DNA from: Diaphorobacter sp. HDW4B
GTDB lineage: Bacteria > Pseudomonadota > Gammaproteobacteria > Burkholderiales > Burkholderiaceae_C
Length of the DNA stretch: 64,000 nt
Assembly: GCF_011305535.1 (NCBI RefSeq)
Contig: NZ_CP049906.1
Coordinates: 1 to 64,000 of the forward strand
Direction of reading: 5' to 3'
Numbering within the stretch: position 1 is the first letter of the stretch; the number at the start of each line of letters is the position of its first letter. Both the position numbers and the translations under genes were made by a program. Positions 33,261 to 41,866 of the stretch are shown here, one piece after another. The notes below the pieces were generated by a model. That model did no database searches and had not been told where the DNA came from. It saw nothing but the letters and a program-made list of their open reading frames with translations.

Positions 33261-33296
33261 ATTTGTATATATGCATTCGTCTATTTTAATACAAAT
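33261..33296. repeat. Inverted repeat in mini-Fur/receptor divergent region
   Basis: ATTTGTAT (33261-33268) and ATACAAAT (33289-33296) are exact complements separated by 20 bases. The right arm overlaps the Fur box. It could be an operator for the neighbouring mini-Fur-like protein. Confidence 0.4.
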
Positions 33297-33310: not shown

Positions 33311-33425
33311 AAGAAGCAAAGCAATGCTTTCATGAAGCCAGTTGTCTCCCATGACGCACTCAGCCATTGAGGATGAGTCGTTTGAACGCAGCAAGCCAAC
33401 TTGTTCCATTTCTCCGCTCCGAATC

Positions 33426-35666
33426 ATGGCGAACTCCAACACTTACATCAAAAGCCGCAAACACACGGTTCTTGCCGCAACGGCCATTGCAGCGCTCAGC
33501 CTGCCAATACACGCACAGTCCCAGACCAAACCTGCTGCCACGCCCACACTGAAAGAAGTGACGGTGACCGACGTACAGGAATCGGCCTATACGCCTGCGC
33601 ACGGTCTGTCCTCTCCCAAGTTCACCCAGCCGCTGGTCAACACCACGCAGACCGTCACCGTCATCAAGGAACAGTTGATGAAGGAACAAGGCGCGACCAC
33701 GCTGACCGAAGCGCTGCGCAATGTGCCCGGTGCCGGCACGTTCTACGCGGGCGAGAACGGCAACACCAGCACGGGCGACGCGATCTACATGCGCGGCTTC
33801 GACACGTCCAGCAGCATCTTTGTCGATGGCGTTCGCGACCTTGGCTCGATCTCGCGCGACATGTTCAACATCGAGCAGATCGACGTGATCAAGGGCGCTG
33901 CGGGCACGGACTTCGGCCGCTCTGCGCCCACCGGCTCGATCAACCTCTCGACCAAGCAGCCCAAGCTGGAGGACAGCTTCGACGCATCGCTCAGCGCCGG
34001 CAGCGCAAGCTACAAGCGCTCGACCGTGGACTGGAACAAGTCGCTCGAAGGCATGGGAGGTGCGGCCTTTCGCCTGAACGCGATGGCGCAAGACGCTGGT
34101 GTGGCCGGACGTGATGAAGTGAAGAACGACCGCTGGGGCATCGCGCCATCGCTCGCCTTCGGCCTGAACACCGACACACGCACCTATCTGAATTTCCTGC
34201 ACGTCAAGCAGAGCAACGTGCCTGATGGCGGCGTGCTGACCATGGGCCTGCCCGGCTACTCTTCGCCTGATCCGACAAAGCGCCCTTACCTCTCGGGTGC
34301 CAGCCGTGTGAACTCTTCCAATTTCTACGGCACCTCGTCGGACCACGATGATGTGACCGCGGACATGGTGACACTGCGTGTCGAGCACGACTTTGCGCCT
34401 GGCGTCACGCTGCGCAACACTTCGCGTTGGGGCCAGACCAAGCAGGACTATCTGCTGTCGTCGTTCATGGCCGGCACGTCGCAACTGGTGACGCCGAGCA
34501 CCGATCCCTCCACATGGACGATCACCCGCAGCATCAACACCAAGGACCAGGTCAACCGCATTCTGACCAACCAGACCCACCTGAACGCGAGCTTCGAGAC
34601 CGGCTCCATCAAGCATGATCTGAGCACCGGCCTGGAACTCGCGCGCGAAGAGCAAAACGGCTACACGCTGGCCACCAGCGGCACCGTTCCCACTGTCAGC
34701 GTCTACCACCCGAATTCCAGCGTGTCCCTGCCCGCCTACGCCCGTACCGGCGCTGGCAACAAGGGGACGACCGACACCGTTGCGCTCTATGCCTTCGACA
34801 CCCTCAAGCTCAACGAGCAATGGCAGATCAACGGCGGCGTGCGCCTGGATCACTACAAGACCGACTACGACACCTGGGACGCCAAGGGCGCATCCACACT
34901 CGATCTGAAGAAGAGCGGCAATCTGTTCAACTGGAAGATCGGCGCACTCTACAAACCAGCTCCCAATGGCAGCATCTACGCGAACATGGCGTTGTCGCAG
35001 CAGCCTCCGGGCGGCGCGAACTTCGCGCTGTCTTCGGCGGCCAACAATGCCGCCAATCCCAACATGGATCCTCAAAAGGCCAAGACGGCCGAGCTGGGCA
35101 CCAAGTGGGAACTGTTCGACAAGCACATGCTGGTGTCGGGTGCGCTCTTCCGCACTGAAGTCACCAACGAAATCGTCACCAATCCCGATGGCACCGTCGG
35201 CCAGACCGGCAAGAAGGTCGTCCAAGGCATCGAACTGGGCGTGACCGGCCAGATCACCCCGGCATGGGGCGTGAGCGGCGGCTACACCATCCAGAAAACC
35301 AAGGTGGACACCGGCACCAAGGTGGCCGCAGACGGAACGAACGGCTTGACCTACACACCCAAGGACGCGTTCTCGCTGTGGACCCACTACCAGTTGCCCT
35401 TCGGTCTGAGCATCGGTGGCGGCGCACGCTACGCAGGCGGCCTCAAGCGCGGCACCGATGGTGCCGTGGGTACACCGAACCGCACCGATTCATATTGGGT
35501 GTTTGACGCGGTGGCAAGCTACAAGGTCAACAAGAACTTCGACGTGCAGTTGAACGTGTTCAACCTGTTCGACAAGGACTATGTCTCTGCCATCAACAAG
35601 AGCGGCTACCGCTACTTCCCAGGCATCGCACGCTCGGTGCGTCTGACCGCGAACGTGCATTTCTAA
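33426..35666 (+). CDS. fiu: Catecholate siderophore receptor, Fiu type
   Basis: This encodes 746 residues from the ATG at 33426 ([20 protein letters not shown]). The frame's first ATG at 33342 lacks signal-peptide properties. The signal peptide ends near LPIHAQ. There is no signalling domain, so no sigma/FecR pair is needed. The plug shows [20 protein letters not shown] and [20 protein letters not shown], both characteristic of Fiu-like receptors, and [20 protein letters not shown]. The barrel ends TANVHF. Fiu imports monomeric catecholates and dihydroxybenzoate-type ferric complexes. A PiuC/YbiX hydroxylase gene follows, the usual partner of Fiu. A Fur box lies upstream and a strong terminator directly after the stop. 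Confidence 0.92.
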
Positions 35667-35749: not shown

Positions 35750-36430
35750 ATGATGCTGCATATCCCCAACGTCCTCACCCACGAACAAGTCGCGCAGATG
35801 CGTGCCGCCATCGATGCTGCCGAATGGGTCGACGGGCGCACCACCGCAGGCGTGCAAGGCGCGCATGTCAAACGCAATCGCCAGTTGCCCGAAACCTCGC
35901 CCGTCGCCGTCGAGCAAGGGCGCATCATCGAGCAGGCACTCGCGCGATGCGATCTGTATTTCAGCGCCGCGCTGCCCGCCCGCACCATGCTGCCGCTGTT
36001 CAACCGCTACAGCGATCAGGAGACCTACGGCCTGCACGTCGATGGCGCGGCACGCCGCGTGCCAGGCTCGGTCTTGTGGATGCGCACGGATGTCTCATGC
36101 ACATTGTTCCTGAGCGGCCCTGACGAATACGAAGGCGGCGAGCTGACCGTGGTCGACACCTACGGAACGCACGAAGTCAAACTGCCTGCGGGTGACATGA
36201 TTCTCTATCCCTCCACCAGCCTGCACCGCGTCAATCCCGTCACCCGCGGCGAGCGCGTGGGTGCGTTCTTCTGGACGCAAAGTCTGGTTCGCGACCCTGC
36301 TCGGCGCGCCATGCTGTTCGAAATGGATCAGGCTCTGCGAGGTCTGCGCGCCCGCATCGGCGAGACCGAAGAAACGGTCGCCTTGACCGGCCACTATCAC
36401 AACCTTTTGCGGATGTGGTCGGATACCTGA
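35750..36430 (+). CDS. piuC: Fe(II)/2-oxoglutarate PKHD-type hydroxylase PiuC/YbiX
   Basis: This encodes 226 residues. The iron triad His96, Asp98 (GLHVDGAA) and His159 ([10 protein letters not shown]) is present, with Arg169 placed to bind 2-oxoglutarate. The N-terminus ([20 protein letters not shown]) matches YbiX/PiuC. The enzyme is thought to modify or help release iron from catecholate siderophores; its exact substrate is unresolved. The gene follows the Fiu-type receptor, as in many proteobacteria, but a terminator lies between them. Confidence 0.93.
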
Positions 36431-36601
36431 ACCACCGTTCCATCACCAGCGCGCCACGCAAGCTGCTGCCACTGGGCTGCGTCAGTCTGGGCGCTGGCTT
36501 GCGGGCAATCGTCGCACTGAATGTCTCGCGGATGTAGCTAGTTCCCTTACGAAAGCTCTCCAATCACCGTTGTGCAAAAAATGCTTCCGCAACGATCAAA
36601 G

Positions 36602-36620
36602 TATTGAGAATCATTCACAC
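36602..36620 (+). promoter_or_regulatory. Fur-box-like site before candidate small RNA
   Basis: The core TGAGAATCATTCACA matches 12 of 15 positions of the palindromic Fur unit TGATAATCATTATCA. It overlaps a possible -35 element (TTGAGA, 36604-36609) and ends 8 bases before a perfect TATAAT. Confidence 0.65.
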
Positions 36621-36646
36621 ACCAGTGATATAATCCATCACTGGTG
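36620..36646. repeat. Perfect 10-bp inverted repeat centred on a -10 box
   Basis: CACCAGTGAT (36620-36629) is the exact complement of ATCACTGGTG (36637-36646), with a 7-base spacer. The extended -10 element TGATATAAT (36626-36634) lies inside it, so a protein bound here would block transcription start. Confidence 0.7.
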
Positions 36647-36727
36647 CCACCCCAACAACAGGTGCTCCAAGGTTCTTTTCATCGTGGGTAGCCAGCGGAT
36701 TCTGCAAAGAGTCTGCTGGCTTTTTTT
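36640..36727 (+). ncRNA. Candidate Fur-regulated small RNA (about 88 nt)
   Basis: An extended -10 promoter (TGATATAAT, -10 at 36629-36634) predicts a start near 36640. A rho-independent terminator ends the transcript: a 10-bp stem with one G-U pair (36690-36699 with 36711-36720 or one base off) and a seven-T run. No open reading frame with a start codon fills the interval. The middle is C-rich and poorly structured (CCACCCCAACAACAGG), as in base-pairing RNAs. A Fur site over the promoter suggests iron repression, the logic of RyhB, PrrF and NrrF; there is no visible sequence match to them. The terminator alone could instead end read-through from piuC, 260 bases upstream. Confidence 0.55.
36690..36727 (+). 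terminator. Rho-independent terminator of the candidate small RNA
   Basis: AGCCAGCGGA pairs with TCTGCTGGCT (one G-U pair) around a 12-base loop, followed by a T-run at 36721-36727. The T-run is on the plus strand only, so it does not serve the convergent porin gene. Confidence 0.85.
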
Positions 36728-36738
36728 GTTTTGAAGAC

Positions 36739-38103
36739 TCAGAACACCGTGATTGGCATCTCAGCCACCCACCTTATCTGGTTCATGTTGGATTCGCCCT
36801 GCGCCTTGTTGGTGCGGTGCACGCCATAACGCAGTTGCATGCTCAGGCCCTTGGCACTGCCGCCCTGCACCACGTAGCGCACAACGGCATCACGCTCCCA
36901 GTGCTTTCCGTTCGATCCGCTGTAGCCAAGATAGTTGGCATAAACGCGGTTGAGGCGGCTGTTGTCTACGCCGGAACCTCGCGTGTAGGCAATGCCCGCG
37001 CTCAAGCCAGGAGTGACGATCGATGCCAGGTCCACGTCGTACTTCAACTGCCAGGACGCTTCACGCGGGCCATTGAAGTCGGAGAGCTGCATGGCGTTTT
37101 CGAGCCAGATAGAGCCACGGTTCACATAGTCGAAAGGACTGTTTCCGTTCACCTTCTGGTAGCCGATCCCCAGCTTGTGCGGACCTGCGGCATAGGTGCT
37201 CATCAGGCTCCATGTGGTGTTGCTGACCTCCCCCGATTTCGCCAGGCCCGTGTCCGTGTTGCGATAGAGATTCAGGCTGAACGACAGAGAGCGCTTTTGC
37301 TCAAGCGGCAGTTTGTAGAAGCTTCCCAGATACCACGTGTTCCAATTGTCTTCATACTGGCCGACGTAGCTTGTGAGCGAAAGGTTCTGTACTGGCGTGC
37401 TCCACATGCCACCCAAAAAGCGGAATGCATCGCCCGTGACGCCGGAGTAGTTGGCAAGCAGTGCGTTGTTGCTCTTTCGGGCATTTCGATCGGACCAGCC
37501 GGTAAAGCGTCCCGCCTGAAGCGCAAGCGTCGGGATATCGCTGCTGCTGATCATCCAGCCGCGATGGGTCTCTGGCAGAAGTCGGGTGTCCGACGAATGG
37601 AAGATGGGATTTTTGGTGCGCATCTCGCCTACCCGCAATTCGGTGGACGACATCCGCAACTTGAGTGCAGCACCCGCACGACCAAAGCTGTCCGGAATGT
37701 CCAGTCCATCCTTGGCCATGTAGCGCGGCGTCGAGCGCGCACTGTCGGCATCGGTTCCCAGATTCACAGCACCGTACAGATGCGCGTCCAGTCCCAGACC
37801 CACCACGCCACCGGTATAACCCGACTGGTAGTTCATCATCAGTCCGTAAGCCGATTCCACTGCTTTGGTCTTGCCACGTTCGCCGTTGGTCGCCCGAAAT
37901 GTGCTGCCGTTCTGGTAGTCCAACTGTTCGTAGACATAACGGTTGTGCATCTGCAGGCTGCTACCTTCGACAAACCCTTTGGCGTCATCCTGAGCGCCCG
38001 CGTGGGCAACGCCCGTGGATGCCAGGCCAAGCGCTGCCAGAACATGAAGCGCCTGGTGTGTTCCATTCTTGGAGTTCATCTTCTTCAAAATCATCTTCAT
38101 CAT
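36739..38103 (-). CDS. OprD-family outer-membrane porin in a cobalamin-riboswitch operon
   Basis: This encodes 454 residues. The signal peptide ends near GVAHAG (start ATG at 38103, or the later MNSKNGTHQ at 38079). OprD-like features include DDAKGFVEGSSLQMHNRYVY at the mature N-terminus, ELRVGEMRTKNPIFHSSDTR LLP-type strands in the middle, and a terminal phenylalanine. OprD porins are 18-strand channels for small solutes such as amino acids or organic acids. The start overlaps the pseudoazurin stop (ATGA), placing it last in an ABC-transporter operon. A porin here, where a BtuB-type gated receptor might be expected, is unusual. Confidence 0.85.
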   Translation of the reverse strand: MMKMILKKMNSKNGTHQALHVLAALGLASTGVAHAGAQDDAKGFVEGSSLQMHNRYVYEQLDYQNGSTFRATNGERGKTKAVESAYGLMMNYQSGYTGGVVGLGLDAHLYGAVNLGTDADSARSTPRYMAKDGLDIPDSFGRAGAALKLRMSSTELRVGEMRTKNPIFHSSDTRLLPETHRGWMISSSDIPTLALQAGRFTGWSDRNARKSNNALLANYSGVTGDAFRFLGGMWSTPVQNLSLTSYVGQYEDNWNTWYLGSFYKLPLEQKRSLSFSLNLYRNTDTGLAKSGEVSNTTWSLMSTYAAGPHKLGIGYQKVNGNSPFDYVNRGSIWLENAMQLSDFNGPREASWQLKYDVDLASIVTPGLSAGIAYTRGSGVDNSRLNRVYANYLGYSGSNGKHWERDAVVRYVVQGGSAKGLSMQLRYGVHRTNKAQGESNMNQIRWVAEMPITVF

Positions 38104-41451: not shown

Positions 41452-41599
41452 CGAACGGGTCTTTCCAAAATGGCAGGAAAGCCCTTGGAAGAAACAGCCA
41501 GCACGAGCCGCGATGTCCGTTGCACGCAAACGCACAGGACGACGCAGATATCCGGGAACTGTTCACTTCCCGGACACCCCGCCGGCAATGAATATGTGG

Positions 41600-41757
41600 T
41601 GCTCTGGCAGGTCTCCTGACTGGTAAATCATCGCCTGCTCTGCGCCTTCCCGGACCATGTGTCCAGTGACATATCGAGAGCCAGCTCATTACCTACAGTT
41701 GCGGGGGCAGTTCCATTTCACGGGCCCTCACCAAAAGGCGAAGACCACTGGATTCCC
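41600..41757 (-). ncRNA. Cobalamin (B12) riboswitch
   Basis: Read on the minus strand, the conserved elements appear in order. They are GTGAAATGGAACTG leading into CCCCCGCAACTGT, a variable stem region, then the B12-box-like GTCACTGGACACATGG and CCGGGAAGGC, and finally CCAGTCAGGAGACCTGCC. These are the hallmarks of the cobalamin riboswitch family. It lies about 150 bases upstream of the binding-protein start. Binding of adenosylcobalamin would lower expression of the five-gene operon 36739-41451. The exact 5' end is uncertain by about 20 bases. Confidence 0.92.
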
Positions 41758-41866
41758 TGCTGTGCCGCGCGATGCGCAACACAACTCCTTGCGGAACCGA
41801 AGCGGTCGTTAATGTACCGCACTTTCCAAACCTTGGTTGCTTGGTTTTCGCTGATAAAGTTCCTCG

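Follow-up and report, generated by a model that had tools for sequence, protein, structure and literature searches.

RyhB of Enterobacteria and PrrF of Pseudomonas have a Fur-like site directly upstream, are terminated, and are aimed at sodB and sdh mRNA, features that are also proposed here for an RNA of Diaphorobacter sp. HDW4B. PrrF1 and PrrF2 amount to two copies per genome, a likeness to the RNA described below, although the two copies of the latter are dispersed and not in tandem. Its core, UCAUCGUGG, is presumably unlike those of RyhB and PrrF. Neisseria, a betaproteobacterium, has the Fur-regulated RNA NrrF, whose targets include sdh.

In Burkholderia cenocepacia, BrrF (ncS63) is described as iron-responsive, with predicted targets that include sodB and sdhC (PMC7377471, PMC5688073), and ncS63 as strongly induced by low iron (PMC5688073). 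According to the BrrF paper, brrF is derived from hemP, is 126 nt long, and has no Fur box directly upstream (PMC7377471 / PMC5688073). By context and published description, our RNA resembles BrrF as an iron RNA of Burkholderiales with sodB and sdhC as predicted targets, and its relatives in Variovorax and in one further genome (G072) match the position in the hemP 3'UTR; it differs in having its own box and -10, in the lack of hemP, and in its length of ~87 nt. The original prediction for this locus had cited BrrF as a model, and the hemP-3'UTR context was found in the Variovorax and G072 relatives. It is absent at the locus itself, which lies between a piuC-like gene and a porin gene.

RyhB, PrrF, and NrrF had been named as models too; membership in these families is unsupported, as none was listed by Rfam scans of the interval at E <= 10 or of the whole stretch of DNA analyzed (64 kb, hereafter the window) at gathering score. 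Seven loci with homologues gave no Rfam match at E <= 0.5. The Betaproteobacteria toxic small RNA (RF02278) is likewise short with two hairpins, but membership was rejected at 13.3 bits against a gathering score of 50; a genuine member occurs elsewhere in the genome (C1:1490341-1490403, 58.2 bits), and our locus was not among the 7 matches at E <= 1. No iron-responsive RNA of Comamonadaceae was named among the matches listed for a few terms in the open-access literature. Judging from its sequence and relatives, the locus is very probably the gene of a small regulatory RNA that would be produced in iron starvation, of a family not listed in Rfam.

Anatomy of the Locus

Within 126 bases, the locus carries, 5' to 3', a Fur-like box, an extended -10, a predicted 87-nt RNA, and an intrinsic terminator. 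The features are as follows.

33342-35666: TonB-dependent receptor gene, upstream of the piuC-like gene
35750-36430, + strand: gene for a PKHD-type 2OG-Fe(II) oxygenase, piuC-like; upstream neighbor, outside the conserved unit
36603-36621, + strand: Fur-like box ATTGAGAATCATTCACACA, from matrix scans; a counterpart precedes the -10 in the other six copies
36620-36646, no strand: exact 10-bp inverted repeat over the -10 (arms 36620-36629 and 36637-36646), probably incidental
36626-36634, + strand: extended -10 TGATATAAT, from the sequence; the other copies have a -10-like hexamer in the corresponding position
36641-36727, + strand: predicted small RNA of ~87 nt, its start estimated from the -10 and its end from the T-run
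36643-36668, + strand: 5' hairpin; in helix 1, 95.9% of cells are paired and 2 of 7 pairs changed on both sides
36668-36689, + strand: unpaired core CAAGGTTCTTTTCATCGTGGGT, from predicted folds and an alignment of 10 sequences
36679-36687, + strand: invariant nine-letter TCATCGTGG, identical in the 10 sequences
36690-36727, + strand: intrinsic terminator, a 14-pair stem (36690-36721) plus T7, supported by covariation
36739-38103, - strand: OprD-family porin gene; downstream and convergent, outside the conserved unit

The Fur-like site was scored with two matrices built from other loci. With the first (11 boxes, window excluded, 8 of them from relatives of the RNA), the box reached 19.2 bits and was the seventh of seven clear sites in the 64 kb (19.2-27.3 bits), the next position scoring 10.1. 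The second matrix was made from three boxes unrelated to the RNA, namely those of the sodA operons in G001, G003, and G083; it gave 17.7 bits and again rank seven, with 12.4 for the next position not overlapping a better site. The Fur-like site of the original prediction was thus recovered, and the RNA is very probably under Fur control, as far as its promoter sequence and those of its relatives tell. Counterparts of the -10 read TATACT in three of the other copies and TATGAT or TAAGAT in the rest. TTGAGA (36604-36609) lies 19 nt upstream of the -10, a long spacing, and a sigma-70 consensus scan of 36000-37400 returned 0 promoters.

Folding of 36640-36730 gave z = -2.75, and the stretch between the hairpins was unpaired in four predicted folds. 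The strong rho-independent terminator claimed for the locus was found, with 14 pairs and T7, and so was the lack of a coding frame: just three frames of at least 10 codons occur in 36635-36740, of 10 to 17 codons including the stop, all with GTG starts and none convincing. A Fur-like box next to the promoter, a terminator of its own, and no reading frame are features of a Fur-repressed, trans-acting small RNA.

Six more strong Fur-like sites lie in the window (5504, 9900, 14233, 14330, 33288, and 52956; 20.4-27.3 bits), the one at 33288 just upstream of the receptor gene that begins at 33342. The window has the look of an iron-uptake region on the 761-kb replicon. It also contains a cobalamin riboswitch (41589-41816, - strand, 92.8 bits) ahead of genes whose ORF translations read as a cobalamin-type ABC uptake set.

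Copies in the Genus and the Family

Searching six genomes of the genus by blastn with 36590-36735 returned the window locus itself, another copy elsewhere in its genome, and one each in G002 and G004, with no match in G001, G003, and G005. The second copy (C1:4378141-4378259) is situated between uvrC and a tctC-like gene, as read from translations. A covariance model of these four copies (R1) was searched over 299 genomes of the family and matched in 12 at E <= 0.01. A further model of seven copies (R2), searched over 399 genomes with 11-15 candidates scored per genome, matched in 13, and the 6 genomes above 80 bits (G000 twice, G002, G004, G140, G216, and G285) are its own training set, such that these bits show merely that no other close copy was found. 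Weak R1 matches (L016, L018, L019, L021, L022, and L023) and weak R2 matches (L032-L036 and L022 again) lacked CATCGTGG followed by T5 within 100 nt and were not counted, while L020 was retained among the weak matches as a carrier of the core. A pattern scan yielded 77 stretches, of which 4 from Comamonadaceae were scored with the model; three are homologues (L040, L087, and L108; 81.6-94.6 bits) and L099 is not (13.8 bits). No homologue was found within 20 kb of sodA or DUF2325-like genes in G001, G003, G008, G009, G083, and G109, and no match to the window RNA was found in the plasmid collection.

Seven copies were found in all, two in the window genome and one each in G002, G004, G140, G285, and G216. 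Every one of them has a Fur-like box directly before the -10, two covarying hairpins, and the unpaired core. Of the hairpin cells, 96.2% are paired (22.6-44.4% for slid partners), and changes on both sides were counted in 18 cells vs a mean of 6.6 in shuffles. A covariance search across Comamonadaceae had been suggested as a check; blastn and the covariance models found the RNA conserved in five other genomes and as a paralogue, and the piuC/porin neighborhood not conserved. This comparison, in which paralogue and orthologues keep box, -10, 5' hairpin, core, and terminator, is the strongest support for a Fur-controlled, terminated, non-coding RNA. We also observed CAACGATCAA upstream of the window RNA (36590-36599) and the reverse complement, TTGATCGTTG, downstream of the C1 copy (L004, L027), a pair that may be due to chance or be a trace of duplication.

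Genomic Context and the sodA Operon

As the original prediction stated, the locus lies between the piuC-like oxygenase and porin genes; a cupredoxin gene nearby is on the same strand as the porin, opposite to the RNA. The other genomes differ in their neighborhoods, and in four of the five (G002, G004, G140, and G285) the RNA heads a sodA operon. In G002, G004, and G285 the genes immediately downstream are a DUF2325-like gene, an unknown gene, and sodA; in G140 they are the DUF2325-like gene and sodA, with no room seen for the middle gene. In G216, a DUF2325-like gene follows the RNA, and the only superoxide dismutase (SOD) found in the genome lies elsewhere. The DUF2325 match is above the Pfam cut-off in G285 (39.6 bits) and below it in the window genome (25.8 bits). 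The SODs of G002, G004, G140, G285, and the window genome carry GGHANH, which we take to indicate the manganese type.

The sodA operon of the window genome (C1:5350392 onwards, L026) has its own Fur-like box of 22.6 bits and no RNA, and the same arrangement was seen in G001, G003, and G083. A DUF2325-like gene and sodA behind a Fur-like box, with no RNA in front, were observed in several Comamonadaceae (L026, L115, L117, and L234), and in L026 a gene read as a ZIP-type transporter follows sodA.

Predicted Targets

We picked sodB and sdhC beforehand as classical targets. CCACGA, the complement of UCGUGG in the core, occurs in the sodB leaders and in the sdhC leaders of all six RNA-bearing genomes, vs 4 of 313 background starts (positions -40 to -1) sampled from 20 genome stretches and called by a simple script, some of them doubtful. 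The duplex of the window RNA with sodB spans the ribosome site and start codon and has a predicted energy of -19.5 kcal/mol, with 5 of the 313 starts as low or lower; for the second copy the value is -19.1 (11/313). Elsewhere, where no background was computed, it is -18.5 in G002, -20.8 in G004, -22.2 in G140, and a weak -14.2 in G285 and G216. Pairing with sdhC is ordinary, at -13.0 (177 of 313 as low or lower) and at -11.4 for the second copy (214/313). Target prediction, suggested at the outset as a check, hence placed sodB among the best 5 of 313 and found sdhC unremarkable. CCACGA is also present in 6 sodB and 6 sdhC leaders of 12 relatives without a detected RNA, for two of which (G005 and G053) no FeSOD start could be assigned. 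Unless the searches overlooked homologues in these relatives, the site has another function, which weakens the target evidence. The putative role of the window RNA in iron-sparing regulation of sodB is likely.

Wider Family in hemP 3'UTRs and next to fur

A scan for CATCGTGG followed by T5 within 100 nt covered loci totaling 2.04 million bases with both strands counted (some loci overlapping, the 77 pattern-scan loci excluded) and returned the known copies, L020, L125, and nothing else. L125 (G092) has a Fur-like box, a -10-like hexamer, the core, and a terminator directly before a FUR-family gene (PF01475); no hemP was visible in the stretch from box to core, and the box adjoins the RNA. L020 (G072) carries hemP (PF10636), with the start of the core 4 nt past its stop codon and a FUR-family gene downstream. 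Given this position, hemP 3'UTRs were examined. Among the two plasmid-collection records with hemP, that of Variovorax paradoxus VAI-C has the core in its 3'UTR, before a FUR-family gene, and that of Phyllobacterium lacks it; within this collection, the Variovorax 3'UTR matches itself only.

Across 10 sequences, the nine letters of the core are invariant, and 11 of 13 predicted terminator pairs changed on both sides in at least one sequence. R2 scores were low for L020 (26.3 bits), L125 (18.1 bits), and the Variovorax locus (14.9 bits), and members of this kind can therefore escape a genome-wide R2 search. Past the first T-run, L014, L015, L017, L020, L125, and L239 have a further segment (GCCAGCC.. 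or GCTAGCC..) that carries another T-run and is absent from Diaphorobacter-type copies; it could represent tandem terminators or a longer form of the RNA.

Alternative Explanations

The perfect extended -10 had been placed inside the exact 10-bp inverted repeat, and a second regulator had been suggested from it. Both elements are present and the repeat is exact, but TATAAT starts on the last base of the left arm and lies mostly within the 7-nt spacer. While an exact palindrome that spans the -10 would suit an operator, the left arm is missing from the other six copies in the alignments, no second site within 3 mismatches occurs elsewhere in the genome, and the number of exact 10-bp repeats with a spacer of at most 10 (1 in the window) is that expected by chance (0-2, mean 0.9, in 10 first-order Markov shuffles). 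Most of the right arm coincides with the conserved 5' end of the RNA, and the arm runs into the 5' hairpin. The palindrome is probably accidental and an operator of a second regulator very unlikely, so this part of the original prediction was not upheld. That the RNA instead encodes a short peptide, such as VPPQQQVLQGSFHRG, is barely credible: a related reading, LQGS(F)HRG, recurs in 5 of the 7 copies (window, G004, G140, G285, and G216), but the C1 copy and G002 carry a frameshift in it, the copies have no start codon in common, no ribosome site was seen, and sequence changes follow the hairpins, grounds on which coding was ruled out.

Two further explanations concern the setting of the copies. 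A cis-acting leader, whose terminator attenuates the downstream operon and of which the free copies are relics, would fit the four genomes with the RNA directly before the DUF2325-like and sodA genes. No second Fur-like box was seen between terminator and genes (by eye for G140 and G285), which would allow the RNA promoter to serve the operon by read-through. We nevertheless consider such a leader unlikely, as nothing on the same strand follows the window RNA, whose next gene is convergent, the sodA operon of the window genome has its own box in place of the RNA, and invariance is found in the unpaired core instead of in an alternative hairpin. Action in trans is favored by the position of both copies of the window genome, which are free-standing and apart from the sodA operon. 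The window locus might also be a duplicate of the C1 copy in decay, silent or seldom used: among the four copies in the genus it has the lowest model score (82.5 vs 93.9-100.7 bits), the right half of its Fur-like box is weaker, and its context is found for no other copy. The locus nevertheless keeps the 14-pair stem and T7, a 5' hairpin that can fold, and an undamaged core, and its -10 moved to a perfect TATAAT, making decay quite unlikely.

Discussion

This analysis draws on sequence anatomy, conservation, covariation, genomic contexts, and complementarity. We favor, with a probability of roughly 0.72, the reading of 36641-36727 as a Fur-repressed, terminator-ended small RNA acting in trans, whose core would pair with CCACGA leaders. 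When iron is plentiful, Fur on 36603-36621 would block the promoter, and in iron starvation the RNA would be transcribed. Its open core, presumably with the aid of Hfq, may then pair with CCACGA leaders, with the best support for sodB (iron superoxide dismutase) and weaker support for sdhC, and repression of these targets would mean less iron enzyme and spare iron. The window RNA would be one of two free-standing copies of a family that elsewhere heads a sodA operon or sits in a hemP 3'UTR.

The contexts can be arranged in a series. In Variovorax and G072, the core would form the tail of a transcript of hemP that has a Fur-like box, ahead of fur. In Acidovorax and Diaphorobacter, the RNA heads a sodA operon, and one Fur promoter could switch the manganese SOD on and the iron SOD off. 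The window genome would hold two stand-alone genes with differing cores, where GUGGUU appears to fit sodB AACCACGA and GUGGGU to fit sdhC AUCCACGA, perhaps the onset of target specialization. The history from hemP 3'UTR to independent gene is attractive, with a direction of evolutionary change that we infer from the series; as a whole, the account of an iron RNA that left the hemP 3'UTR to become a gene of its own, and whose two cores in the window genome are perhaps specializing, is tentative and, in our estimate, falls somewhat short of even odds.

The sodA-operon form would be a compact circuit swapping iron SOD for manganese SOD. With its hemP 3'UTR, box-RNA-fur, sodA-operon head, and two free genes, the series would make the transition from 3'UTR regulator to gene testable. 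Should it prove real, the family would take the place of RyhB in these environmental bacteria, the Comamonadaceae.
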